Positions 46,014-60,722 of a DNA stretch of 64,000 nucleotides are shown here, in pieces (positions within the stretch are counted from its first letter, which is position 1; each line of letters starts with the position of its first letter). The notes beneath the pieces were generated by a model, which had not been told where the DNA came from, searched no databases, and saw only the letters and a list, made by a program, of their open reading frames with translations. A program made the position numbers and the translations under genes. Origin of the DNA: Reyranella sp. (GTDB lineage Bacteria > Pseudomonadota > Alphaproteobacteria > Reyranellales > Reyranellaceae); contig JAQSDW010000211.1 in the NCBI GenBank assembly GCA_029946105.1, forward strand, positions 50,494 through 114,493, given 5' to 3'.

Positions 46014-47567
46014 CTATTCCGCCGCTGCCGCGAGGCGCGGGCGGGTGAAGTCCTCGGGGAAATGTTTTATGGCGCTCATCACCGGATAGGGCGTGAAGCC
46101 GCCGAGCGCGCAGAGCGAGCCGAATTTCAGCGTCTGGCAAAGGTCGGTGATCAACGCGAGGTTGGCTTCGGCGCGGTCGCCGGCGATGATCTTGTCCATC
46201 GTCTCGGTGCCGCGCACCGAGCCGATGCGGCAGGGTGTGCACTTGCCGCAGGATTCGATGGCGCAGAATTCCAGGGCGAAGCGCGCCTGCTTGGCCATGT
46301 CGACGCTGTCGTCGAACACCACGACGCCGCCATGGCCGATCAAGCCATCGCGGGCGGTGAAGGCCTCGTAATCGAACGGCGTATCGAACAAGCCGCGCGG
46401 GAAGTAGGCGCCGAGAGGCCCGCCGACCTGCACGGCGCGCGCTGGCCGGCCACTGGCCGTGCCGCCACCGATATCGTCGACGATTTCGCCCAGGGTCAGG
46501 CCGAAGGCCGCCTCGAACAGGCCACCATGCTTGACGTTGCCGGCAAGCTGGATCGGCATCGTGCCGCGCGAGCGGCCCATGCCGAGATCGGCATAGTGCT
46601 TGGCGCCGTCGGCCAGGATGGCGGGCACCGTGGCGAGCGAGATCAGGTTGTTGATGACAGTCGGCCTGCCGAACAGGCCCTTGTGCGCCGGCAGCGGCGG
46701 CTTGGCGCGCACCTGGCCGCGCTTGCCTTCGAGGCTCTCGAGCAGCGAAGTCTCCTCGCCGCAGACATAGGCGCCGGCGCCGACGCGGACCTCGATGTCG
46801 AACTTCGCCTCGGCGCCCAGCAGGCCCTCGGCTTCGGCCAGGACGATGGCGCGTTCCATGACGCGGATGGCGTCGGGATATTCGGATCGGATGTAGAGGT
46901 AGCCCTTGGTCGCGCCGACGGCGAAGCCTGCGATCGTCATGCCCTCGATCAGCACGAAGGGATCGCCTTCCATGATCATGCGGTCCGCATAGGTGCCCGA
47001 GTCGCCTTCGTCGGCGTTGCAGACGATGTATTTGCGATCGGCCCCCATGGCGGCCGTCGTGTCGGCGACGGTCTTCCACTTGATGCCGGTCGGGAAGCCC
47101 GCACCGCCGCGGCCACGCAGGCCCGACTTCGTGACCTCCTCGACCGTGCCGGCGGCGCCCAGGCTCCTGGCGCGCTCGAGGCCGCGATAGCCGCCATGGG
47201 CGCGGTAATCAGCCAGCGACAGCGGATCGACGATGCCGCAACGCGCGAAGGTGATGCGCGTCTGACGCTTCAGGAAGGGAATGTCCTCGGGCCGGCCGAC
47301 GCACAGCGGATGGGCGGCACTGACCGGCAGGCCGCCGGCGAAGAGACCGGGAACATCCTTGGCCGTCATTGGCCCGAAGGCGATGCGTCCACCCAGCGTC
47401 TCGACCTCGATCATCGGCTCGAGCCAAAAGAGACCACGCGAGCCGGTACGGACAACATCGATGGCGAGGCCGAGCTGCTTGGCTTCGGCTGCGATGGCGG
47501 CAGCCACGCGATCGGCGCCGACGGCACGCGCGGCGGCGTCGCGGGGAACGAAGATCCGGGTCGTCAT
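46014..47567 (-). CDS. fdsB: NAD-dependent formate dehydrogenase beta subunit
   Basis: This 517-residue diaphorase subunit, homologous to NuoF, binds FMN and NAD+. The glycine-rich FMN/NAD motif GRGGAGFPTGIKW is near residue 140, YICNADEGDSGTY-like sequence follows (IVCNADEGDSGTYADR), and the [4Fe-4S] centre is in ESCGKCTPCRIGSVRG near the C-terminus. The N-terminal 100 residues are the thioredoxin-like leader found in FdsB and HoxF. The ATG overlaps the fdsG stop by four bases, giving coupled translation. It transfers formate-derived electrons to NAD+. Confidence 0.97.
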   Translation of the reverse strand: MTTRIFVPRDAAARAVGADRVAAAIAAEAKQLGLAIDVVRTGSRGLFWLEPMIEVETLGGRIAFGPMTAKDVPGLFAGGLPVSAAHPLCVGRPEDIPFLKRQTRITFARCGIVDPLSLADYRAHGGYRGLERARSLGAAGTVEEVTKSGLRGRGGAGFPTGIKWKTVADTTAAMGADRKYIVCNADEGDSGTYADRMIMEGDPFVLIEGMTIAGFAVGATKGYLYIRSEYPDAIRVMERAIVLAEAEGLLGAEAKFDIEVRVGAGAYVCGEETSLLESLEGKRGQVRAKPPLPAHKGLFGRPTVINNLISLATVPAILADGAKHYADLGMGRSRGTMPIQLAGNVKHGGLFEAAFGLTLGEIVDDIGGGTASGRPARAVQVGGPLGAYFPRGLFDTPFDYEAFTARDGLIGHGGVVVFDDSVDMAKQARFALEFCAIESCGKCTPCRIGSVRGTETMDKIIAGDRAEANLALITDLCQTLKFGSLCALGGFTPYPVMSAIKHFPEDFTRPRLAAAAE

Positions 47568-48037
47568 CGACCGGCCTCCCGCAGGATGTCGTCGAACGAT
47601 GAGGACGTCAGCCGCGCGATCGGCTCGCCATCGAGCATGGCCGAGGGCGCGCAGGCGCAGAGGCCCAGGCAGTACGTCGCCTCGACGGTGAGACGGCCGT
47701 CGGGCGTCGTGTCGCCCCAGTCGACACCGAGCCGATCGAGGAACGCACGGGCGAGGCGCTCGCCATCCATCGACTGGCAGGCCTCGGCGCGGCAGAGTTT
47801 CAGCACATGCTGGCCGGCCGGCTGCTCGCGAAAATCGTGATAGAAGCTGACCACGCCATGGACCTCGGCGCGGGTAAGGTTGAGCGCGTCGGCCACGAGG
47901 CGCACGGCAGCCGGCGGAACACACCCGAAAACGGCCTGAAGATCGTGCAGGATGGGCAGCATCGCCCCTTCCCGCCCGTAGTGCCGGCGGATGATGCTAT
48001 TGGCCTCGGCTTCGTCCCACGCGGCTGCCTTGGGCAA
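47564..48037 (-). CDS. fdsG: NAD-dependent formate dehydrogenase gamma subunit
   Basis: This 157-residue NuoE-like subunit carries a thioredoxin-fold [2Fe-2S] cluster whose four cysteines are C-x4-C in CRAEACQSMDG and C-x3-C in YCLGLCACAPS. It is first of the operon fdsGBA-D. The ATG at 48037 has AAGGAGAC upstream. The 152-base region before it carries a perfect inverted repeat that fits a LysR operator. Confidence 0.96.
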   Translation of the reverse strand: MPKAAAWDEAEANSIIRRHYGREGAMLPILHDLQAVFGCVPPAAVRLVADALNLTRAEVHGVVSFYHDFREQPAGQHVLKLCRAEACQSMDGERLARAFLDRLGVDWGDTTPDGRLTVEATYCLGLCACAPSAMLDGEPIARLTSSSFDDILREAGR

Positions 48038-48189: not shown

Positions 48190-49083
48190 TTATCTCAGCC
48201 TATCGGCAAGTAATTTTGCCTCGGCGACCAAGGCGGCGGCCAACGGCTGCATGGGTTCGCGGTCTGGGACGACCAGCCCGATGCTGTGAACCGCCTCCGG
48301 TTCGACGATCGGGATCGACCGCAGGTGCTCCGTCAGGCCAAGGGTGTCGGCGAGTTTCTCAGGCATCACGCTCGCCCAACGGCCCGTCCGCACATGCGAA
48401 AACAGGACGATCATCGAGTTGGATTCGAGCGTGGGATCGGGCACGCCGCCGCCCGCGGCGCGCAGCAGCTGATCAATGATGCGCCTGTTCTGCATGTCCG
48501 GCGTCAGCAGGCAGAGCGGGATCTTGGCGACTTCGGCCCAGGTGACGCTGTCGCGATCGCCGAGCGGGCTCGTTTCCGAGGTGAGCAGGCGATATTGTTC
48601 AAGATAAAGCGGCACCGCGCGCACCCGGCCGAGCGGTTCATTGTCGATATAGGTGAGGCCCGCATCGATTTCGAGATTCTCGAGCATCGACAGGATCTCG
48701 ATCGAGGTCCGCGACAGCACGGTAAACGTCACGTTGGGATGCTTGGCGCGAAAGGGCGTGGTGAGCGCCGACACCATGGGAAGCACCGTCGGGATCGCGG
48801 CGACCTTCAGCCGGCCGACCAGGCCCTGCTTGAGGGCCCGCAATTCCTGCCGCATCGCACGACTGTCGGCCACGATGCCGCGCGCCCACTCGAGGACGCG
48901 TTCTCCCTCGGCGGTGAAGGCGATGAAGCGCGAGCTGCGATGAACGAGAAGCACGCCCAGCGTCGCCTCGAGCTGCTTGATGCCTGCAGAAAAGGTCGGC
49001 TGGGTCACGCCGCACTGCTCGGCGGCCTTGCCGAAGTTCTTTTCCCGCGCCAGGGCGAGAAGGAATTCAAGTTTGTCGATCAT
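48190..49083 (-). CDS. LysR-family regulator, probably of formate dehydrogenase
   Basis: This 297-residue transcription factor has an N-terminal winged helix (LEFLLALAREKNFGKAAEQCGVTQPTFSAG, residues 5-34) and a LysR substrate-binding domain from about residue 90. Because it lies directly upstream of fdsG in the same direction, and fds operons elsewhere are controlled by a LysR protein (FdsR), that role is likely. It is also divergent from tctC by about 105 bases, so the same protein could link formate oxidation with carboxylate uptake. Effector binding residues are not identified. Confidence 0.9.
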   Translation of the reverse strand: MIDKLEFLLALAREKNFGKAAEQCGVTQPTFSAGIKQLEATLGVLLVHRSSRFIAFTAEGERVLEWARGIVADSRAMRQELRALKQGLVGRLKVAAIPTVLPMVSALTTPFRAKHPNVTFTVLSRTSIEILSMLENLEIDAGLTYIDNEPLGRVRAVPLYLEQYRLLTSETSPLGDRDSVTWAEVAKIPLCLLTPDMQNRRIIDQLLRAAGGGVPDPTLESNSMIVLFSHVRTGRWASVMPEKLADTLGLTEHLRSIPIVEPEAVHSIGLVVPDREPMQPLAAALVAEAKLLADRLR

Positions 49084-49188
49084 GTGCCCACACGGGATAC
49101 GAGCACCGGCGCTCGACCGGTTGGAAAAACCATTGTAGGATTATTGCAAGAACTACCAAGAAAAGATCTCTGGGAAGGAACCAAAACC

Positions 49189-50202
49189 ATGATCGATTCG
49201 CTTCGATTCCGTGCGCTTGCCTTTGCGGTCTCTGCCGCAATGGTAGCGAGCCTTGGCGTTGCTCCGGCAGGCGCGTGGGAGCCGACACGCAACGTCGAAT
49301 TCATCGTTCCCGCCGGTACCGGCGGTGGCGCCGACCAGATGGCGCGAATGATCCAGGGCATCGTCGCCAAGCACAATCTGATGAAACAGACGATGGTGGT
49401 CATCAACAAGGCGGGCGGCGCCGGCGGCGAAGGCTTCCTCGACGTCAAGGGCGCCAAGGCCAACCCGAACAAGCTGGTCATCACGCTGTCGAACCTGTTC
49501 ACCACGCCGCTGGCGACAGGCATTCCCTTCTCGTGGAAGGACATGACGCCGGTGGCGATGCTGGCGCTGGACGAGTTCGTGCTCTGGGTCAACGCCGACT
49601 CGCCCTACAAGACGGTCCAGGAATACGTGGCGGCGATCAAGGCGGCACCGGACGGCCAGTTCAAGATGGGCGGCACCGGCTCGAAGCAGGAAGACCAGAT
49701 CATCACCGTCGCGCTGGAAAAGGCGATCGGCAAGAAGATGACCTACGTCCCCTACAAGGGCGGCGGCGAGGTCGCGGTCCAACTCGTCGGCAAGCACATC
49801 GATTCGACTGTCAACAACCCGATCGAGGCGGTGGCACAATGGCGTGCCGGCAAACTGCGCCCGCTCTGCGTGTTCGACTCAAAGACTCTGCCGTACCCGG
49901 ACAAGATCGCCGGCGACAAGTCGTGGGCCGACATCCCGACCTGCAAATCGCAGGGGCTGGACATCGAGTACGTAATGCTGCGCGGCGTCTTCATGCCGGC
50001 CGGCGTTCCGAAGGAAGCGGTCGACTACTACGTCGAACTGTTCAAGAAGGTTCGCGCCACGCCGGAATGGGCGCAGCTCATGAAAGACGGTGCCTTCAAC
50101 ACCTCGTTCATGACCGGCGCCGACTATGCGAAGTGGGTTGAGAACGAGGACAAGCGCCATCGCGACCTGATGAAGGAAGCGGGCTTCCTGGCCACCAATT
50201 GA
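49189..50202 (+). CDS. tctC: Tripartite tricarboxylate transporter binding protein TctC
   Basis: This 337-residue periplasmic binding protein has a signal peptide (FRALAFAVSAAMVASLGVAP, cleavage near AGAW) and the Bug family start VEFIVPAGTGGGADQMAR. INKAGGAGGEGFLDVKG forms the first carboxylate loop, and GSKQEDQII with VPYKGGGEVAVQLVG the second. GGAAGGAA lies about ten bases before the ATG. It is followed by tctB and tctA, so all three parts of one secondary transporter are here. Adjacency to oxalyl-CoA decarboxylase suggests oxalate or a related small dicarboxylate as ligand; that is inference. Confidence 0.93.
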   Translation: MIDSLRFRALAFAVSAAMVASLGVAPAGAWEPTRNVEFIVPAGTGGGADQMARMIQGIVAKHNLMKQTMVVINKAGGAGGEGFLDVKGAKANPNKLVITLSNLFTTPLATGIPFSWKDMTPVAMLALDEFVLWVNADSPYKTVQEYVAAIKAAPDGQFKMGGTGSKQEDQIITVALEKAIGKKMTYVPYKGGGEVAVQLVGKHIDSTVNNPIEAVAQWRAGKLRPLCVFDSKTLPYPDKIAGDKSWADIPTCKSQGLDIEYVMLRGVFMPAGVPKEAVDYYVELFKKVRATPEWAQLMKDGAFNTSFMTGADYAKWVENEDKRHRDLMKEAGFLATN

Positions 50203-50266: not shown

Positions 50267-50770
50267 ATGTCCAATCCGCCGGATGATCCCGACTCGGTCG
50301 GGCCGCGGCAACGCCATGTCGAGCTGGGTGTTGCCGCCTTCATGGTGGTGCTGGGCGCCATCACCATCTTCGGCAGCCTGAAGGTCGGCATCGGCTGGGG
50401 AGCGGAAGGACCGAAATCCGGATTCTTTCCCTTCTGGATCGGCCTGCTGATCGTGGGCACGAGCGTCTTCAACTTCGTCTGGGCCTACATCACGCCCAAT
50501 CGCAAGCTGTTCGCCGAATGGGGGCAGATCAATCAGGTACTCAAGATCGTGTGGCCGATGGCGATCTATGTCGCCGCGGTTCCGTGGCTCGGCATCTATG
50601 TCTCCTCGGCGCTGCTGATCATCGGTTTCATGCGCTGGCTCGGGCACTATGGCTGGCCCCTCACCCTGGGCGTTGGTCTGGGATTGCAGGTCATCATCTA
50701 CGTGACGTTCGAAAAGTGGTTCCTGCTGTCGTTGCCAAAGGGGCCACTCGAGGACCTGCTCGGGCTCTAG
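50267..50770 (+). CDS. tctB: Tripartite tricarboxylate transporter small membrane subunit TctB
   Basis: This 167-residue membrane protein has four hydrophobic segments (about residues 18-37, 48-70, 85-112 and 120-145). The typical pattern GPKSGFFPFWIGLLIV follows the first helix. It is the poorly conserved small partner of TctA. AGAGG precedes the ATG. It lies between tctC (64 bases upstream) and tctA (33 bases downstream). Confidence 0.92.
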   Translation: MSNPPDDPDSVGPRQRHVELGVAAFMVVLGAITIFGSLKVGIGWGAEGPKSGFFPFWIGLLIVGTSVFNFVWAYITPNRKLFAEWGQINQVLKIVWPMAIYVAAVPWLGIYVSSALLIIGFMRWLGHYGWPLTLGVGLGLQVIIYVTFEKWFLLSLPKGPLEDLLGL

Positions 50771-50803
50771 AACCCGAGGCCAATACGGAAATCCGGGGGA
50801 TCG

Positions 50804-52309
50804 ATGGAAAGCATTGGCGATTTGCTCAACGGTTTTGCCGTCGTTCTGAGCTGGCAGAACCTGCTTTACATGGTGATCGGCATCGTCCTGGGCGTGATCA
50901 TCGGCGTCCTGCCGGGCCTGGGCGGCGCCAACGGCGTGGCGATCCTGCTGCCGCTCACCTTCAGCATGTCGCCGACATCGGCCATCATCCTGCTGTCCTG
51001 CATCTACTGGGGCGCGCTGTTCGGCGGCGCCATCACCTCGATCCTGTTCAACATCCCGGGCGAACCATGGTCGGTGGCGACCACATTCGACGGCCATCCC
51101 ATGGCGCAGAAGGGCCAGGCGGGCGAGGCGCTCACGGCAGCCTTCACCTCGTCGTTCGTGGGCGCGCTGTTCGCCGTCATCGTCATTACCCTCGCGGCAC
51201 CACTGGTCGCGAGCTTTGCGCTACAATTCGGCCCGGCCGAGAAATTTTCGGTGTTCTTCCTGGCGTTCTGCAGCTTCGTCGGCATGGGCAAGGAACCGCC
51301 GACCAAGACCATCGCGGCGATGATGCTGGGCTTCGCGCTGGCCGCGGTCGGTACCGACACCGTGACCGGCCAGCTTCGTCTGACCTTCGGTTCGACCGAG
51401 CTCCTGGGCGGCTTCGATTTCCTGATCGCCGTGATCGGCCTGTTCGGCATCGGCGAAATTCTGCTGACCATGGAAGAAGGGCTGAGCTTCAAGGGCAAGG
51501 CCGCGGGCATCAATCCCGCCGTGGTCCTGCAGACCTGGAAGGAATTGCCGCGCTACTGGATGACCTCGCTGCGCTCGTGCCTGATCGGCTGCTGGATGGG
51601 CATCACCCCCGCCGGTGCGACGCCGGCCTCGTTCATGAGCTACGGCATCGCCAAACGGGCGTCGAAGAACGGCGACAAATTCGGCACCGGCGAGATCGAA
51701 GGCGTCATCGCGCCGGAGACCGCCGCGCATGCCGCCGGCACATCTGCGCTGCTGCCCATGCTGTCGCTCGGCGTGCCGGGATCGCCGACCGCCGCCGTGC
51801 TGCTGGGCGGCCTCCTGATCTGGGGCCTGCAGCCCGGGCCACTGCTGTTCGTCGAGCAGAAGGAATTCGTCTGGGGCCTGATCGCCAGCATGTACCTCGG
51901 CAACATCGTCGGCCTCGTGGTCGTGCTGACCATGGTGCCGTTCTTCGCCGCCATCCTGCGCGTCCCGTTCGCCATCATCGCGCCGGTCATCCTGGTGATC
52001 TGCGCCATCGGCGCCTACACCGTGCACAACAACAGCTTCGACGTCGTGATGATGCTGGTCTTCGGCGTCGCCGGCTATTTCCTGAAGAAGTGCAACTACC
52101 CGATGGCGCCGCTGGTCCTGGCCATCGTGCTGGGGGACAAGGCCGAGGAGGCTTTCCGGCAGTCGCTGCTGATCTCCCAGGGCAGTCTCGGCGTCTTCTG
52201 GTCGAGCGGCCTAGTCGCCACGATCATGAGCCTGGGCCTGATCGCCCTGTTCTGGCCGTTCCTGTCGAACCTGTACGGCCGGATCCTCACCCCCGCTTTC
52301 CGAAAATAA
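50804..52309 (+). CDS. tctA: Tripartite tricarboxylate transporter large membrane subunit TctA
   Basis: This 501-residue permease has about 11-12 transmembrane helices. The diagnostic TctA motif is near the front: GVIIGVLPGLGGANGVAILLPLTF. The repeated counterpart later in the protein is near TSALLPMLSLGVPGSPTAAVLLGGL. With TctB and the periplasmic TctC it forms a Na+- or H+-driven carboxylate importer. GGGGGA precedes the ATG. It ends the transporter group; about 110 bases separate it from the GntR regulator. Confidence 0.95.
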   Translation: MESIGDLLNGFAVVLSWQNLLYMVIGIVLGVIIGVLPGLGGANGVAILLPLTFSMSPTSAIILLSCIYWGALFGGAITSILFNIPGEPWSVATTFDGHPMAQKGQAGEALTAAFTSSFVGALFAVIVITLAAPLVASFALQFGPAEKFSVFFLAFCSFVGMGKEPPTKTIAAMMLGFALAAVGTDTVTGQLRLTFGSTELLGGFDFLIAVIGLFGIGEILLTMEEGLSFKGKAAGINPAVVLQTWKELPRYWMTSLRSCLIGCWMGITPAGATPASFMSYGIAKRASKNGDKFGTGEIEGVIAPETAAHAAGTSALLPMLSLGVPGSPTAAVLLGGLLIWGLQPGPLLFVEQKEFVWGLIASMYLGNIVGLVVVLTMVPFFAAILRVPFAIIAPVILVICAIGAYTVHNNSFDVVMMLVFGVAGYFLKKCNYPMAPLVLAIVLGDKAEEAFRQSLLISQGSLGVFWSSGLVATIMSLGLIALFWPFLSNLYGRILTPAFRK

Positions 52310-52419: not shown

Positions 52420-53109
52420 ATGAGCGAAAGTCGTGTGGTGGTCGCTCCGATCGACAGCCCGGAGACGTTCAAGGACAAGGCCTACACGGCCTTGCGGAAC
52501 GTCATCGTGTCGTCGGACGTCTACCGCTCGCGCACCGATATCCGGCTCGACGAGCGTCAGCTCGCCCAGGACTTCGGCATCTCGCGCACCCCGGTGCGCG
52601 AGGCCATGGCCCAGCTGGAACGCGAGGGCTTCGTGCGCTCGGTGCCGCGACGCGGCATCTATGTCGTGCGCAAGACCAAGGAAGAGGTGATCCAGATGAT
52701 CACCGCCTGGGCGGCACTCGAGAGCATGGCGGCGCGGCTGATCACCGAGCGCGCTAGCGATGCCGACATCGCGGGGCTCCGGCGCATGTTCGCCACCTTC
52801 GAGGGCGACCGACTGCACGCCAAGCTCGACGAGTATTCCGAGGTCAACATCAACTTCCACCAGACGATCATCGAGCTGAGCGGCAATCACGTGCTCATCC
52901 GTCTGGCCGAGAACCTGTTCACCCATATGCGGATGATCCGCCGCCAGACCATCGGCGAGGAAGACCGCGTCGATCGCTCGATCCGCGACCACATGAACAT
53001 CATCCAGGCCCTCGAGGCGCGCGATACCGAGCGCGCCGAGGACCTGGTGCGCCAGCATGCGCTCGGCCTTGCCGCGCATGTCGCCAAGCACGTCGACTAT
53101 CTGGATTGA
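52420..53109 (+). CDS. GntR-family (FadR/FCD subfamily) regulator
   Basis: This 229-residue regulator has a winged helix ([28 protein letters not shown], about residues 47-74) and an all-helical FCD ligand-binding domain (about residues 88-220). His and Asp residues in [14 protein letters not shown] and in the last helices are the usual metal ligands of FCD domains that sense organic acids. It lies 32 bases before oxc, so it probably controls the oxc-frc group and itself. The ligand could be oxalyl-CoA, oxalate or glyoxylate; unknown. Confidence 0.92.
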
Positions 53110-53141: not shown

Positions 53142-54872
53142 ATGGCCGAAGCGGCATTGAAAAAGCCTGAGGCGGAAGAAGCGGAAGAACTGACCGACGG
53201 CTTCAACCTCATGATCGACGCGTTGAAGCTGAACGGCCTCACGACGATCTACGGCGTGCCCGGCATCCCGATCACCGACTTCGGCCGCATGGCGCAGGCA
53301 GCGGGCATCCGCGTCCTGTCGTTCCGTCACGAACAGAATGCAGGCTATGCCGCGGCGATTGCCGGCTTCCTGACGAAGAAGCCCGGCGTCTGCCTCACCG
53401 TGTCGGCGCCCGGCTTCCTGAACGGTCTCACGGCGCTCGCCCATGCCACGACCAACTGTTTCCCGATGATCCTGATCTCGGGCTCGTCGGAGCGCGAGGT
53501 CGTCGACCTGCAGCAGGGCGACTATGAGGAGATGGACCAGCTCGCCATCGCCAAGCCCCTCTGCAAGGCGGCCTTCCGCGTGCTGCACGCCGCCGACATC
53601 GGCATTGGTCTCGCCCGCGCCATCCGCGCCGCCGTCTCGGGCCGTCCGGGCGGCGTTTATCTCGATTTGCCGGCCAAGCTGTTCGGCCAGGTGATGAATG
53701 CCGAGGCCGGCAAGAAGTCACTCGTCAAGGTGATCGACGCCGCACCAGCCCAGATCCCCGCACCCACTGCCATCAAGCGCGCACTGGACGTGCTGAAGGG
53801 CGCCAAGCGTCCGCTGATCATTCTCGGCAAGGGCGCCGCCTACGCCCAGGCCGATGATGCGATCCGCAGCTTCGTCGAGAAGAGCGGCGTGCCGTTCCTG
53901 CCGATGAGCATGGCCAAGGGTCTGCTGCCCGATACGCATCCGCAGTGCGCCGGTGCGGCGCGTTCGACGGTGCTGAAGGATTCCGACGTCGTCATGCTGA
54001 TCGGCGCGCGTCTCAATTGGCTGCTGTCGCACGGCAAGGGCAAGGCTTGGGGCGATGCCCCCAAGAAATTCATCCAGGTCGACATCGAACCCAAGGAGAT
54101 GGACAGCAACGTCGAGATCGCCGCGCCCGTGGTCGGCGATATCGGCTCGTGCGTTGCGGCGCTACTGGAGGGCATGGGCAATAGCTGGACGAAGGGCCCG
54201 ACCGACTGGATGGGCGCCGTTTCATCCAAGCGCGAGGAGAACGTCGCCAAGATGGCGCCGCGCCTCATGAACAACAACTCGCCGATGGACTATCACGGCG
54301 CGCTGGGCGTCTTGCGCACCATCATCAAGGAGCGTCCGGACGCGATCCTGGTCAATGAAGGCGCCAACACGCTCGACCTGACGCGCGGCGTCATCGACAT
54401 GTACAAGCCGCGCAAGCGGCTCGACGTCGGTACCTGGGGCGTCATGGGCATCGGCATGGGCCAGTGCATTGCTGCCGCCGTCGAGACCGGCAAGCCGGTG
54501 CTTGCGATCGAGGGTGACAGCGCCTTCGGCTTCTCCGGCATGGAGGTCGAAACGATCTGCCGCTACAACCTCCCGGTCTGCATCGTCATCTTCAACAACG
54601 ACGGCATCTATCGCGGCACTGACGTCAATAGTGTCGGCAGCGATCCCGCCCCGACCGTGTTCGTCAAAGGCTCGCGCTACGACAGGATGATGGAGGCCTT
54701 CGGCGGCGTCGGCATCCACGCCACGACACCCGATGAACTGAAGCGCGCCGTCAACGCGGCGATGGACTCCGGCAAGCCCACGCTGATCAACGCGGCGATC
54801 GATCCGGCCGCCGGCAGCGAGAGCGGCCGCATCGGCAATCTCAATCCGCAAAGCAAGCTCAAGAAGAAGTAG
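53142..54872 (+). CDS. oxc: Oxalyl-CoA decarboxylase
   Basis: This thiamine-diphosphate enzyme of 576 residues converts oxalyl-CoA to formyl-CoA and CO2. The activating Glu64 is in SFRHEQNAG. The thiamine/metal motif begins Gly458-Asp459-Ser460 and ends Asn485-Asn486, with the standard spacing. [19 protein letters not shown] and a small C-terminal tail are typical of Oxc and differ from acetolactate synthase. GGAGG lies before the ATG at 53142; an earlier in-frame ATG at 53106 overlaps gntR and has no ribosome site. It precedes frc by nine bases, giving the classic oxalate-degradation pair. Confidence 0.96.
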
Positions 54873-54881
54873 GGGACGACC

Positions 54882-56312
54882 ATGGCCAAGAAGAAGGCGA
54901 AGAAGGACAAGGTGAAGGCGAAGGACAAGGTCAAGGATAAGGCGAAGTCCGGCAAGAAGCGGGCACTCAAGCTCATCGCCAAGACGCCGAAGATCTCCTC
55001 CAAGCCCTGGGGCAAGGACGGCAAGGCGCTCGACGGCGTGAAGATCCTCGACTTCACCCACGTCCAGTCGGGCCCGACCTGTACGCAGCTCCTGGCATGG
55101 TTCGGCGCCGACGTGATCAAGGTCGAGCGGCCGGGCCAGGGCGACATCACGCGCGGCCAGCTGGTCGACGTGCCGGGCGCCGACAGCCTCTATTTCACCA
55201 TGCTCAACCACAACAAGCGCTCGATCACGCTCGACTCCAAGAGCAAGGAAGGCATGCGGGTGCTCGAGCGATTGGTGAAGACCTGCGACGTGCTGGTCGA
55301 GAACTTCGCGCCGGGCGCGCTCGATCGCATGGGCCTCACCTGGGAGCGCATCCATTCCTGGAACCCGCGCATGATCGCGGCTTCGGTGAAGGGGTTCGGT
55401 CCCGGCGCCTATGAAGACTGCAAGGTCTACGAGAACGTGGCGCAGTGCGCTGGCGGCTCGGCCTCGACCACGGGCTTCCTCGACGGCCCGCCGCTGGTCA
55501 CCGGCGCTCAGATCGGTGATTCGGGCACCGGCCTGCATCTGGCACTCGGCATCGTGAGCGCGCTCTACCAGCGCAACCGCACGGGCCGCGGCCAGCACGT
55601 GCTGTGCGCCATGCAGGATGGCGTGCTCAACCTCTGCCGCGTGAAGCTGCGCGACCAGCAGCGGCTCAAGGCGGGCCCTCTCAAGGAGTACACGCAGTTC
55701 GGCCAGAACATCCCATTCGGCGAAGCCACGCCGCGCGCCGGCAACGATTCGGGCGGCGGCCAGCCCGGCGTCATCCTGAAGTGCAAGGGCTGGGAGACCG
55801 ATCCCAACGCCTACATCTACTTCATCACCCAGGCGCCGGTGTGGGAGAAGATCTGCGACCTGATCGGCCAGCCCGACTGGAAGACCCATCCCGACTACGC
55901 CAAGCCGCCGGCCCGCCTTCCGCGGCTCACGGAGATCTTCGGCCGGATCGAGCAGTGGACCATGACCAAAACCAAGTTCGAGGTCATGAACGAGTGCAAC
56001 GCACTCGATATCCCGGTCGGCCCGATCCTGTCGATGAAGGAGATTGCCGAGGACCCGGCGCTGCGGGCGACCGGGACCGTCGTCGAGGTCGATCATCCCA
56101 AGCGCGGGCCGTATCTCTCGGTCGGCAATCCGATCAAGCTGTCCGACTCAATCACCGAGGTGAAGCGCTCCCCGCTTCTGGGCGAGCACACCGACGAGAT
56201 CCTGTCGAAGGTGCTGAAGTTCACGCCGCGCGAGATCGCCGAGATCAAGGCCTCGGGCGCGACCGGCGAACAACCTAAAGCCGCCCCTCCCCAAGCCCGG
56301 GCTGCGGAGTAA
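54882..56312 (+). CDS. frc: Formyl-CoA:oxalate CoA-transferase with lysine-rich leader
   Basis: This class III CoA-transferase of 476 residues moves CoA from formyl-CoA to oxalate, giving oxalyl-CoA and formate. The core begins [18 protein letters not shown] near residue 51. The catalytic aspartate is Asp213 in [10 protein letters not shown], 44 residues later than Asp169 of the Oxalobacter enzyme, so the whole offset is an N-terminal extension ([20 protein letters not shown], continuing Lys-rich to about residue 45). A short Pro/Ala tail ends the protein. The gene overlaps neither neighbour: nine bases after oxc and three before the formyltransferase gene. Confidence 0.94.
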
Positions 56313-56315
56313 AAC

Positions 56316-57245
56316 ATGCGCATCGTGGTCCATGGCCAGCAGGCCTTCGGCAAGGCCGTGCTGGAGGCGCTGCTGAAGCGCGGCGAGAACGTGGTCGGCG
56401 TCTATGTGGCGCCCGAGAAGCCCGGGCAGAAGGCCGATCCGCTGAAGGAAGCAGCCCTCGCGGCCAAGCTGCCGATCTTCCAGCCAGCCTCTTACCGAAA
56501 GCCCGAGGTCTGGGAAGAGTTCAAGGCACTGAAACCCGACCTGCAGGTCATGGCGTTCGTGACCCTGTTCGTGCCCGAGGAATTCCTCAACGTCCCGACG
56601 CACGGCTCGATCCAGTATCACCCGTCGCTGCTGCCGGCCTATCGCGGCGCCAGCGCGATCAACTGGCCGATCATCCTGGGCGAGAAGGAAACCGGCCTGT
56701 CGATCTTCTGGCCCGACAACGGCCTCGATACCGGCGACGTGCTCCTGCAGAAGAAGACGCCGCTCGGCCCCAAGGACACGCTGGGCACGGTCTACTTCGA
56801 CCGCCTGTTCCCGATGGGCGTCGAGGCGATGCTGGAGGCGGTCGACCTGGTGAAGGCCGGCAAGGCGCCGCGCCTCAAGCAGGACGAAAAGCTCGCGACC
56901 TACGAAGGCCGCGCCACCGCCGACATCGCCCGTATCGACTGGGGCAAGTCGTGGCGGCAGATCGATCCGCTGATTCGCGGCTGCAACCCGGCACCCGGTG
57001 CCTGGTCGACGCTCGACGGCAAGAACCTGCAGATCTTCGACATCCAGCCCTTGCCCGCCCGCGATCCCAAGGGCATCGCCGGCAAGATGGGCGAGATCGT
57101 CGAAGTTACTGCCGACGGCTTCACCGTCGTCTGCGCCGACGGCCGCATCAAGGTCTTGCGCGTGAAACCTGCCGACGGTCCGAAGGTCGGCGCCGGAGAA
57201 TTTGCGTCAGCGGTGAAGCTCGCCGTCGGCATGCGATTCGCCTGA
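56316..57245 (+). CDS. Free-standing formyltransferase like the N-terminal domain of 10-formyl-THF dehydrogenase (ALDH1L1)
   Basis: This 309-residue protein covers a formyl_trans_N domain (1-180) and a C-terminal Fmt-type barrel (200-305). The sequence is closer to the hydrolase domain of ALDH1L1 than to methionyl-tRNA formyltransferase: HGSIQYHPSLLPAYRGASAI, SIFWPDNGLDTGDVLLQK. Catalytic His102 and Asp138 keep the 36-residue spacing of His106/Asp142 in ALDH1L1; the Asn of ordinary formyltransferases is Gln100. The aldehyde dehydrogenase part is absent. It sits three bases after frc and before formate-THF ligase. Possible roles: formyl transfer between folate and formyl-CoA, or formyl-folate hydrolysis to formate. 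Neither is shown. Confidence 0.8.
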   Translation: MRIVVHGQQAFGKAVLEALLKRGENVVGVYVAPEKPGQKADPLKEAALAAKLPIFQPASYRKPEVWEEFKALKPDLQVMAFVTLFVPEEFLNVPTHGSIQYHPSLLPAYRGASAINWPIILGEKETGLSIFWPDNGLDTGDVLLQKKTPLGPKDTLGTVYFDRLFPMGVEAMLEAVDLVKAGKAPRLKQDEKLATYEGRATADIARIDWGKSWRQIDPLIRGCNPAPGAWSTLDGKNLQIFDIQPLPARDPKGIAGKMGEIVEVTADGFTVVCADGRIKVLRVKPADGPKVGAGEFASAVKLAVGMRFA

Positions 57246-57251
57246 GTTCAT

Positions 57252-57365
57252 ACCCCTCCCCTTCGCGGACTCCGCGAAGGGGAGGTGGCGCCCTCTTAGG
57301 GCGACGGAGGGGTCATGACCCCTCCGCCCCGTAAGACGGGCCACCTCTCCCGATGACGGGGGAGG
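57252..57365. repeat. Multi-palindrome intergenic element before fhs
   Basis: The element holds a perfect hairpin of at least 13 base pairs (CTCCCCTTCGCGG and its complement, 57256-57284) and a perfect 22-base palindrome at 57305-57326 (CGGAGGGGTCATGACCCCTC, then CG). The outer arms GGTGGCGCCC and GGGCCACC also pair. It is a REP-like element, unlike the 7-kb and 9.6-kb repeats. It may terminate or process the upstream oxc-frc message. Confidence 0.75.
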
Positions 57366-57392
57366 AGGATAAAAAAGGAAGGAAACAACTCA

Positions 57393-59090
57393 ATGGCCGG
57401 CACGCAGCACAGTAATCCGAAATCCGATATCCAGATCGCGCAGGAAGCCAAGAAGCGGCCGATCATGGAATTGGCGAAAGAGAAGCTGGGTATCGCGCCC
57501 GAGAATCTCGATCCCTATGGCCACTACAAGGCCAAGATCTCGATGGACTACATCAAGTCACTGCAGGGCAAGCCCAACGGCAAGCTGATCCTGGTTTCGG
57601 CGATTTCGCCGACGCCGGCTGGCGAAGGCAAGACCACGACCACCGTGGGACTGACCGACGCGCTGAACCACATCGGCAAGAAGGCCATGCTGTGCCTGCG
57701 CGAACCGTCGCTCGGGCCGAGCTTCGGCATGAAAGGTGGTGCGGCCGGCGGCGGCTTTGCCCAGGTTGTGCCGATGGAGGACATCAACCTCCATTTCACC
57801 GGCGACTTCCATGCCATCGGCGCCGCCCACAACCTCCTGTCGGCGCTGATCGACAACCATATCTACTGGGGCAACGCGCTCGGCATCGACGGGCGACGCG
57901 TGGCGTGGCGCCGCGCCATCGACATGAACGACCGCAGCCTGCGCGAGATCGTCTCGTCGCTGGGCGGCGTCGCCAACGGCTTTCCGCGCCAGGACGGCTT
58001 CGACATCACGGTCGCGTCGGAGGTGATGGCCATCTTCTGCCTCGCCAAGGACCTCGAAGACCTGAAGACGCGGCTCGGCAATATCATCGTGGCCTACACC
58101 CGCGAGCGTAAGCCAGTGCGCGCCTCGGAGCTGAAGGCGCACGGGCCGATGACGGTACTGCTGAAGGACGCGCTGTCGCCCAACCTCGTGCAGACGCTCG
58201 AGGGCACGCCCGCCTTCATCCATGGCGGCCCGTTCGCCAACATCGCGCACGGCTGCAACTCGGTGCTGGCCACGACCACGGCGCTGAAGCTGGCGGACTA
58301 TGTGGTTACCGAGGCGGGCTTCGGCGCCGATCTGGGTGGCGAGAAGTTCATCGACATCAAGTGCCGCAAAACAGGCCTGATGCCAGACGCCGTGGTGCTG
58401 GTGGCCACGATCCGCGCACTGAAAATGCACGGCGGGGTCAAGAAGGAAGACCTAAAAACCGAGAACCTGAAGGCACTGGAAACCGGCATGGCGAACCTGC
58501 AGCGCCACGTCGAGAACATCAAAATGTTCGGCCTGGTGCCGGTGATCTCGATCAACCGCTTCAGCGCCGACACCGATGCCGAGATCGCCCTGGTCAAATC
58601 CGCCTGCGCCAAGCTCGGTGTCGAGGCGGTGATGGCCGACCATTGGGCCGAGGGCGGCAAGGGCGCCGCCGACGTCGCGCGCGCGGTGGTGAAGGTGATC
58701 GACGAGGGCAAGAGCAAGATGAAGCTGCTCTATCCCGACGAGATGCCGCTCCTGGAAAAAATCCGCACCATCGCCAAGGAGATCTACCGCGCCAAGGACA
58801 TCGCCGCCGACAAGTCGGTGCGCGACCAGCTCGCCTCGTTCGAGGCGATGGGTTTCGGCAACGTGCCAGTCTGCATTGCCAAGACGCAGTACAGTTTCTC
58901 GACCAACCCTGACGCCAAGGGCGCACCGTCCGATCACATCGTGACGGTGCGCGAGGTGCGGCTCTCGGCCGGCGCCGGGTTCGTCGTCGCGGTCTGCGGC
59001 GACATCATGACCATGCCCGGCCTGCCCAGGACCCCGGCCGCCAACAGCATCGACGTGGCGGCCGACGGCAAGATCGTCGGGTTGTTCTAG
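57393..59090 (+). CDS. fhs: Formate-tetrahydrofolate ligase
   Basis: This 565-residue enzyme makes 10-formyl-THF from formate, ATP and THF. The ATP loop [14 protein letters not shown] is near residue 70. [28 protein letters not shown]-type sequence (partly listed) and PCRxTGLxP-like [22 protein letters not shown] are family hallmarks. AAGGAAGG precedes the ATG. It is the last plus-strand gene of the oxalate/C1 group, convergent with malate synthase, 12 bases apart. With Fds it offers two fates for formate: oxidation or assimilation into C1 metabolism. Confidence 0.97.
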
Positions 59091-59102: not shown

Positions 59103-60722
59103 TCAGGCCGCCTTCTTTTCCTCGGCGATGATGCGGTCGTAGGCCGGCAGCGTCAGGAACTCGTAGAACTGCGCCTGCTCGACCAGCTCGATCATGAGCT
59201 GGGCCGCCTCCTCGTGGCGGCCCTTGGCATAGGCCTCGTCGCCGATCTGCGCCTTCACCTTGTCGAGTTCCTCGCGCACGATCTCGCGCACCATCTCCTT
59301 GGTGATGAGACGTCCGTCGTTCAGCGTCTGGGCATGGCGCACCCACTGCCAGACCTGGGCGCGGCTGATCTCGGCGGTGGCGGCGTCCTCCATCAGGTTG
59401 AACAGCGGCACGCAGCCGATGCCACGCAGCCACGCCTCGACGTAGCCGATGCCCACCGCCACGTTCTGGCGCAGGCCGGCCTCGGTCTTGGTGCCCTCGG
59501 GCATCGCGATCAGGTCGGCTGCCGTCACGTGAACGTCCTGGCGCTTGCGCGCGATCTGGTTGGCTTCCTTCATGATGACGTCGAACTCGCCCTTGGCGAT
59601 CTCGACAAGGCCGGGATGGGCGACCCAGGTGCCGTCGTGGCCGTCGGCCGCCTCACGCTTCTTGTCGGCGCGCACGCGGCCCATGGCCTCGTCGTTGGCC
59701 GCCGGATCGTTCTTGATCGGGATCTGCGCCGCCATGCCGCCCATGGCGTGAACTTCGCGGCGATGGCAGGTCTTGATCAGGAGCTGGCTGTAGCTGCGCA
59801 GGAAATGCGAGGTCATGCCGACCTGCGCGCGGTCCGGCAGCACCGACCATGCCTGCTCGCGGAACTTCTTGATGAAGCTGAAGATATAGTCCCAGCGGCC
59901 GCAGTTGAGGCCGGCCGAATGATCCCTGAGTTCCCACAGGATCTCGTCCATCTCGAAGGTGGCGAGGATGGTCTCGATCAGCACCGTGGCCTTGATCGAC
60001 TTCTGCGGCACGCCGAGTGCTTCCTGGGCGGCCACGAACACGTCGTTCCACAGCCGCGCCTCGAGATGGCTCTCGATCTTGGGCAGGTAGAAATAGGGGC
60101 CGGTGCCGCGGGCGAGCGCTTCCCTCGCGGTGTGGAAGAAATAGAGGCCGAAATCGAACAGCGAGCCCGACATAGGCGCGTCGTCGACCGTCACGTGCTT
60201 CTCGGGCAGATGCCAGCCGCGCGGACGGACGAAGAGCACCGCCGTCTTGTCGTTCAGCGTGTAGGTGCGGCCGTTGTTGGGATCGACGAAGTCAATCTCA
60301 CGGTGGACGGCGGCGGCGAGGTTGAACTGGCCCTCGATCATATTGTCCCAGGTCGGCGTCGATGCATCCTCGAAGTCAGCCATGAAGACGTTGGCGCCGC
60401 AGTTGAGCGCATTGATGATCATCTTGCGGTCGACCGGCCCGGTGATCTCGACCCGGCGGTCGAGAATGTCCTGGGGCAGCGGCGCCACGGTCCAGTCGCT
60501 CTCCCGGATATGCGCCGTCTCCGGCAGGAAGTCAGGCTTCTCGCCGGCATCGAGCCGCTTCTGGCGCTCGGCACGGGCGGCCAGCAGTTCCTCGCGGCGG
60601 CCATTGAACTTGCGCTGCAGGTCGGCCACGAACGCAACTGCCTCTTTGGTAAGCACCTTTTCGTAGCCCGGCTTGATTTCGCCATCGATGATCACGCCCG
60701 CCGGAAAGTCCAAAGCCGCCAT
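59103..60722 (-). CDS. aceB: Malate synthase A
   Basis: This 539-residue enzyme condenses glyoxylate and acetyl-CoA to malate. The length and the motif [20 protein letters not shown] identify form A rather than the larger form G. The stretch [10 protein letters not shown], the acetyl-CoA/Mg2+ site in [20 protein letters not shown], and the conserved end region with [19 protein letters not shown] are clear. GAGGGA precedes the ATG. Isocitrate lyase is not in the window, so the glyoxylate may come from another route: urate/allantoin via PuuD, or oxalate-related chemistry. Confidence 0.96.

Follow-up and report, generated by a model that had tools for sequence, protein, structure and literature searches.

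The hydrolase domain of ALDH1L1 passes a formyl group from 10-formyltetrahydrofolate (10-formyl-THF) to carrier-bound phosphopantetheine, and methionyl-tRNA formyltransferase (Fmt) carries a PAGRG-type loop with a role in tRNA recognition. During oxalate breakdown, oxalyl-CoA decarboxylase (Oxc) yields one formyl-CoA per oxalyl-CoA and formyl-CoA:oxalate CoA-transferase (Frc) spends one formyl-CoA for each next oxalyl-CoA; the cycle is thus closed, with no net formyl-CoA, and losses must be made good. The need to prime this cycle has been published, together with a formyl-CoA half-life of 1.9 h, and YfdE, an acetyl-CoA:oxalate CoA-transferase, has been proposed as a separate enzyme that primes Oxc/Frc from acetyl-CoA in E. 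coli (PMC3720670). When isolated, the ALDH1L1 hydrolase domain hydrolyses 10-formyl-THF in vitro only with a free thiol, e.g. mercaptoethanol, and replacement of its Ile104, which stands at the position of the Fmt Asn, by Asn leaves less than 10% activity (PMC4388273). The N-terminal domain of HypX (HoxX) transfers formyl from 10-formyl-THF to CoA (PMC6802093; reviewed in PMC12134894), a first half-reaction that is followed by CO formation in a protein fused to an enoyl-CoA-hydratase-like decarbonylase and serving hydrogenase maturation. Among the open-licence papers to which our literature search was confined, we found no description of direct formyl exchange between CoA and folate as free metabolites, and none of the gene fmtL described below.

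The window, by which we mean the whole 64,000-nucleotide stretch of Reyranella sp. DNA that was analysed, contains an operon with the gene order TctCBA, GntR regulator, oxc, frc, fmtL and fhs (Table 1), in which fmtL follows the frc stop at 56312 after a gap of three bases and has GGAG six bases before its ATG. Its product belongs to the Formyl_trans_N superfamily, with scores of 118.6 bits for PF00551 and 69.2 bits for PF02911 (Formyl_trans_C), both above the gathering score, and the motifs HPSLLP, RGASAINW, SIFW and GLDTGD can be read in it. These motifs, the 309-residue reading frame, the pair His102/Asp138, Gln100 in place of Asn, the short gap after frc and the downstream fhs had been listed in a preliminary description of the locus, and all were confirmed. 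Its statement that the protein is free-standing also holds: in the window FmtL carries neither an aldehyde dehydrogenase domain nor a carrier-protein domain, the ORF simply ending before fhs, and the ORF and Pfam checks likewise revealed no HypX-type enoyl-CoA-hydratase-like fusion. No match to the PurU model was present among the NCBIfam hits of the window. Since orthologs with 84-97% identity occur in about 30 genomes of the same genus, and the confirmed relatives from one scan across named genomes number 571, the gene is not a product of chance. From its placement, motifs, operon and co-occurrence, we infer, with confidence slightly better than even, that FmtL is a formyl-CoA:tetrahydrofolate formyltransferase, its substrates and direction being predictions.

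Table 1. Features of the oxalate operon and adjoining sequences
Feature	Position	Strand	Evidence or remark
fdsG, formate dehydrogenase gamma subunit	47564..48037	-	NF004638 218.5 bits, cut-off 198
LysR-type regulator	48190..49083		
ORF containing TctC	48286..50202		
TctB + TctA, tripartite carboxylate transporter	50267..52309	+	Pfam TctA 500.7 bits
GntR/FCD-family regulator, operon head	52420..53109	+	Pfam FCD and GntR
oxc, oxalyl-CoA decarboxylase	53142..54872	+	TIGR03254 1031.6 bits, cut-off 739.4
frc, formyl-CoA:oxalate CoA-transferase	54882..56312	+	TIGR03253 689.6 bits, cut-off 504.2
fmtL, free-standing ALDH1L1-N-like formyltransferase	56316..57245	+	309 aa, ATG; predicted formyl-CoA:THF formyltransferase
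fmtL-fhs gap	57246..57385		140 bases; stem-loop chain
fhs/ftl, formate-tetrahydrofolate ligase	57393..59090	+	NF010030 930.6 bits, cut-off 652
Malate synthase-like gene	59103..60722	-	Convergent to operon

The Tct transporter likely takes up the acid substrate. TctA recurs upstream in relatives, where the TctC labels mark homologous DNA only, the query having been one frame off, and a homolog of the GntR/FCD regulator recurs at the same place in most related loci. Translation of oxc likely starts at the ATG at 53142, the ORF itself opening at 53106. Divergent from the operon lies fdsG with the LysR-type regulator, and the fds formate dehydrogenase is predicted to be a formate sink; in many relatives the gene after fhs is fdsB-like. 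The gap between fmtL and fhs was found to contain a chain of strong stem-loops (-87.7 kcal/mol, z -7.4), which may represent a palindromic repeat or else act within the operon as an mRNA-processing/attenuation element. The malate synthase-like gene, which recurs beside the operons of several close relatives, could serve glyoxylate derived from oxalate.

FmtL is closer to the ALDH1L1 hydrolase domain than to Fmt. Its best sequence matches in the PDB are ALDH1L1 hydrolase domains (E 5e-63 to 4e-61), as against E 3e-46 for the best Fmt match, that of E. coli, and its score of 160.1 bits with the NCBIfam fmt model (TIGR00460) lies under the curated cut-off of 201.5. In a maximum-likelihood tree of 39 rows, built without HypX and PurU on account of long-branch problems in an earlier tree, FmtL and ALDH1L1-N fell on one side of a branch against Fmt/ArnA with support of 100/98, and the AU test on FmtL monophyly without ALDH1L1 gave p 0.20 in the same tree. 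These three lines bear out the earlier assignment of the protein as ALDH1L1-N-like and not an ordinary Fmt. With the AlphaFold model of FmtL (mean pLDDT 93), the first five Foldseek matches were all ALDH1L1 hydrolase structures at about 40% identity; the VIA Z scores for E. coli Fmt (34.9) and ALDH1L1 (33.4) were close, and the two therefore cannot be told apart by fold alone.

Comparison with the ALDH1L1 domain (PDB 4qpd, 1s3i and 2bw0), to which FmtL is about 40% identical across the fold, showed that the two share a His-Ser-Asp triad, a residue other than Asn two positions before the His, the folate contacts, and the sequences HPSLLP and RGxSxINW. However, ALDH1L1 has Ile at the key position where FmtL has Gln, Cys or Leu, and FmtL differs further in being free-standing, in residing in bacterial oxalate operons and in its predicted partner, free CoA. 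The HypX N-terminal domain resembles FmtL in its Formyl_trans_N fold, HP motif and lack of the Asn, and has RGPSALDW, but shares only about 20% identity with FmtL and has an altered triad Ser; its first half-reaction is the chemistry proposed here for FmtL, or its reverse. Fmt has the same two-domain architecture, fold and His/Asp pair, but retains Asn at the key position. YfdE, to whose proposed role as an Oxc/Frc primer that of FmtL can be likened, has an unrelated CoA-transferase fold and primes with acetyl-CoA, not formyl-THF.

In the 34 FmtL relatives compared, His102, Ser104 and Asp138 were invariant, and the position equivalent to the Fmt Asn was occupied by Gln (29), Cys (4) or Leu (1) and never by Asn, which is kept by the water-using deformylase PurU of E. 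coli. Pro103 (of HP), Ser113, Asn or Asp at 116, and Trp117 are common to FmtL, ALDH1L1 and HypX but not to the three Fmt compared, and the PAGRG-type loop insertion of these Fmt is missing in FmtL, as it is in ALDH1L1. The folate-site residues Asp134, Asp138 and Tyr196 are conserved. Arg282 and Lys290, invariant in FmtL and mostly different in Fmt, lie where the ALDH1L1 rows have ended or have a gap, and are candidate CoA contacts only. The motifs shared with ALDH1L1 and HypX suggest that the partner is a pantetheine thiol, and by analogy CoA would be the obvious thiol for a free-standing enzyme encoded next to frc. FmtL would thus catalyse 10-formyl-THF + CoA <-> formyl-CoA + THF through His102, Ser104 and Asp138, with the CoA thiol (or the formyl thioester) replacing the carrier-bound pantetheine of ALDH1L1, and would tie the formyl-CoA pool of Oxc and Frc to folate one-carbon metabolism.

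Linkage of fmtL to oxalate genes, for which the preliminary description had proposed a database search, was found in many genomes. Two outcomes named there as refuting, a place among ordinary Fmt in the tree and an absence of oxc/frc linkage elsewhere, were examined and not observed. In the approximately 30 orthologs of the same genus, fmtL lies between frc and fhs whenever the contig extends far enough. Among the best 80 loci of named genomes, whose hosts include Reyranella, Pseudolabrys, Pseudorhodoplanes, Hansschlegelia and Methylopila, frc adjoins fmtL in 68 of the 77 and fhs in 59 of the 76 with enough sequence; these loci are the closest relatives of FmtL and hence a biased set, and evenly drawn samples were used to remove the bias. 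In the class sample of 387 alphaproteobacterial genomes, fmtL was present in 34, oxc in 21 and both in 17, i.e. fmtL occurred in 17/21 oxc genomes versus 17/366 others (odds ratio 87, p 6e-17; by genus, 13 shared genera, p 3e-13). In the phylum sample (319 genomes), oxc was present in eight of nine fmtL genomes (p 8e-9), and 19 of 27 oxc genomes were devoid of fmtL, so that oxalate breakdown in itself does not require the gene. Shared ancestry makes these p-values overstate independence, and the order-level sample comprised three genomes only. None of the oxc genomes, whether they carry fmtL or not, had a YfdE above cut-off. The fmtL gene lies beside frc in Alphaproteobacteria and probably also in Betaproteobacteria, and is linked to enzymes that produce and use formyl-CoA. 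A further example is the Paracoccaceae plasmid pLA6_002, with the order GntR-oxc-frc-"fmt_2"-fhs, on which the fmtL gene (L125:8001-8918) lies within an oxalate operon yet is annotated fmt_2, methionyl-tRNA formyltransferase, an instance of the wrong name under which public records list this family. Near this fmtL is a ketopantoate-reductase-like gene that might encode an oxalyl-CoA reductase.

Fhs was found in 32 of the 34 fmtL genomes of the class sample (94%) and not in every one, versus 152/353 others (p 2e-9; genus level, p 1e-5), and fhs adjoins fmtL even in one locus lacking oxc (G183). However, no Fhs was found in six fmtL-bearing genomes (G590, G620, G678, G741, G347 and G447), indicating that coupling to the ligase is not general. 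Three of the six (G590, G620 and G678), complete genomes outside the class and probably betaproteobacterial, have oxc-frc-frc-fmtL and FolD but no Fhs. In these small genomes (L158:5021-10382, L159 and L160), the two frc genes differ from each other, being 62% and 76% identical to that of the window, and the second may be an alternative primer.

Variant operons were also observed. In nine loci (L035, L037, L071, L093, L102, L115, L116, L126 and L127), frc is kept and the place of oxc is taken by a ThDP enzyme with about 25% identity to oxc, which among solved structures is closest to 2-hydroxyacyl-CoA lyases and scores under the curated HACL and OXC cut-offs. The swap (e.g. L035:5729-7444 and L037:10510-12186) occurs in otherwise identical TctA-GntR-frc-fmtL(-fhs) operons, one of them in a single-contig genome of 1.4 Mb. 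The enzyme may decarboxylate oxalyl-CoA in place of Oxc or may act on another 2-hydroxy acid; as both ThDP enzyme types make formyl-CoA, FmtL is consistently partnered by an enzyme that makes formyl-CoA and by the formyl-CoA transferase. Many of the more distant members (45-65% identity) occur as solitary genes, unaccompanied by frc or oxc, and some of these may therefore do something else. For example, seven relatives of about 57% identity (L111, L112, L113, L114, L118, L119 and L120) have neither oxalate genes nor a common neighbourhood, that of L118 coming after a phytanoyl-CoA-dioxygenase-like gene.

The direction of the proposed transfer is nearly balanced. The preliminary description had suggested that formyl may be moved from formyl-CoA to THF, saving the ATP of the ligase, but this saving is a weak argument: the Frc/Oxc cycle yields no surplus of formyl-CoA, and any formyl-CoA taken for folate is paid for by another oxalate activation. 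The opposite direction, which that description missed, is the refilling of formyl-CoA with 10-formyl-THF supplied by Fhs; it fits most operons at least as well, and formyl movement between CoA and THF has, by analogy, a close precedent in HypX, in the direction from 10-formyl-THF to CoA. If the reaction is right, we consider the chances a little above even that it runs mainly toward formyl-CoA in operons with Fhs, such as that of the window, a slight preference only, and a little below even that it runs mainly toward 10-formyl-THF, carrying oxalate carbon to folate. In the refilling direction, Fhs (formate + ATP + THF) and FmtL would jointly act as a formyl-CoA synthetase, which would prime the cycle and replace formyl-CoA that is hydrolysed or oxalyl-CoA that is drawn off for growth. 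That the pair is such an ATP-driven two-enzyme system, converting formate + ATP + CoA to formyl-CoA through 10-formyl-THF to prime or refill the Oxc/Frc cycle, is offered as a tentative proposal, possible rather than probable. In the oxc-frc-frc-fmtL genomes, which lack Fhs, FmtL would use 10-formyl-THF made by FolD, or run forward and be the sole formyl entry into folate. A one-way reaction of formyl-CoA + THF to 10-formyl-THF + CoA, with oxalate carbon entering the folate/serine cycle without the ligase, overlaps our main reading as a sub-case and seems to us rather doubtful. Such a step is likely downhill, judging from the usual hydrolysis energies of thioesters and 10-formyl-THF, the Fhs-less oxc-frc-frc-fmtL genomes would have no other formyl entry to folate, and the serine-cycle-like mtkAB genes beside the operon in several Rhodobacterales-type loci and one Paracoccaceae plasmid fit forward assimilation. 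Nevertheless, the Fhs present in most fmtL genomes would make it redundant, it would draw on a cycle without net formyl-CoA unless another CoA ester activates oxalate, and ALDH1L1 and HypX, the relatives with known chemistry, run the opposite way.

A thiol-activated 10-formyl-THF deformylase, resembling the isolated ALDH1L1 domain with mercaptoethanol (PMC4388273) or PurU and balancing the folate pool during growth on oxalate, would suit the stand-alone members outside oxalate operons as a general hydrolase, but next to Fhs it would amount to a futile ATP-burning cycle, it gives no account of why fmtL keeps company with frc and with both types of enzyme that produce formyl-CoA, and PurU of E. 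coli keeps the Asn that is absent from FmtL; we regard it as unlikely. We think it improbable that FmtL uses some other thiol or amine, such as a carrier protein or a metabolite, with loose ties to oxalate: although the fold accommodates many acceptors and the neighbours of distant members vary, linkage to frc is tight and repeated, oxc co-occurs, and no recurrent carrier-protein gene adjoins fmtL. Its position adjoining frc would also suit a formyl-CoA hydrolase draining formyl-CoA to formate, but such an enzyme would waste the thioester needed by Frc, and neither the conserved folate site (Asp134, Asp138 and Tyr196) nor the association with Fhs would be explained, making this highly improbable. 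Identity as an ordinary Fmt was rejected: a second methionyl-tRNA formyltransferase would agree with the overall fold and with the routine fmt annotation, but with the sub-cut-off score, the lack of the catalytic Asn and of the PAGRG-type loop, the ALDH1L1 side of the tree, and a separate ordinary Fmt (34% identical to FmtL) in the genome of the window, it is barely conceivable.

If FmtL is the formyl-CoA:THF formyltransferase proposed here, a widespread gene misnamed tRNA formyltransferase would gain a testable function, and the means by which oxalate users maintain their short-lived formyl-CoA primer would be explained. The enzyme would be useful for synthetic formate/formyl-CoA pathways, formyl-CoA being short-lived and hard to supply. 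It would also connect the two carriers of formyl groups, CoA and folate, directly with each other, and thereby tie oxalate breakdown to one-carbon metabolism.
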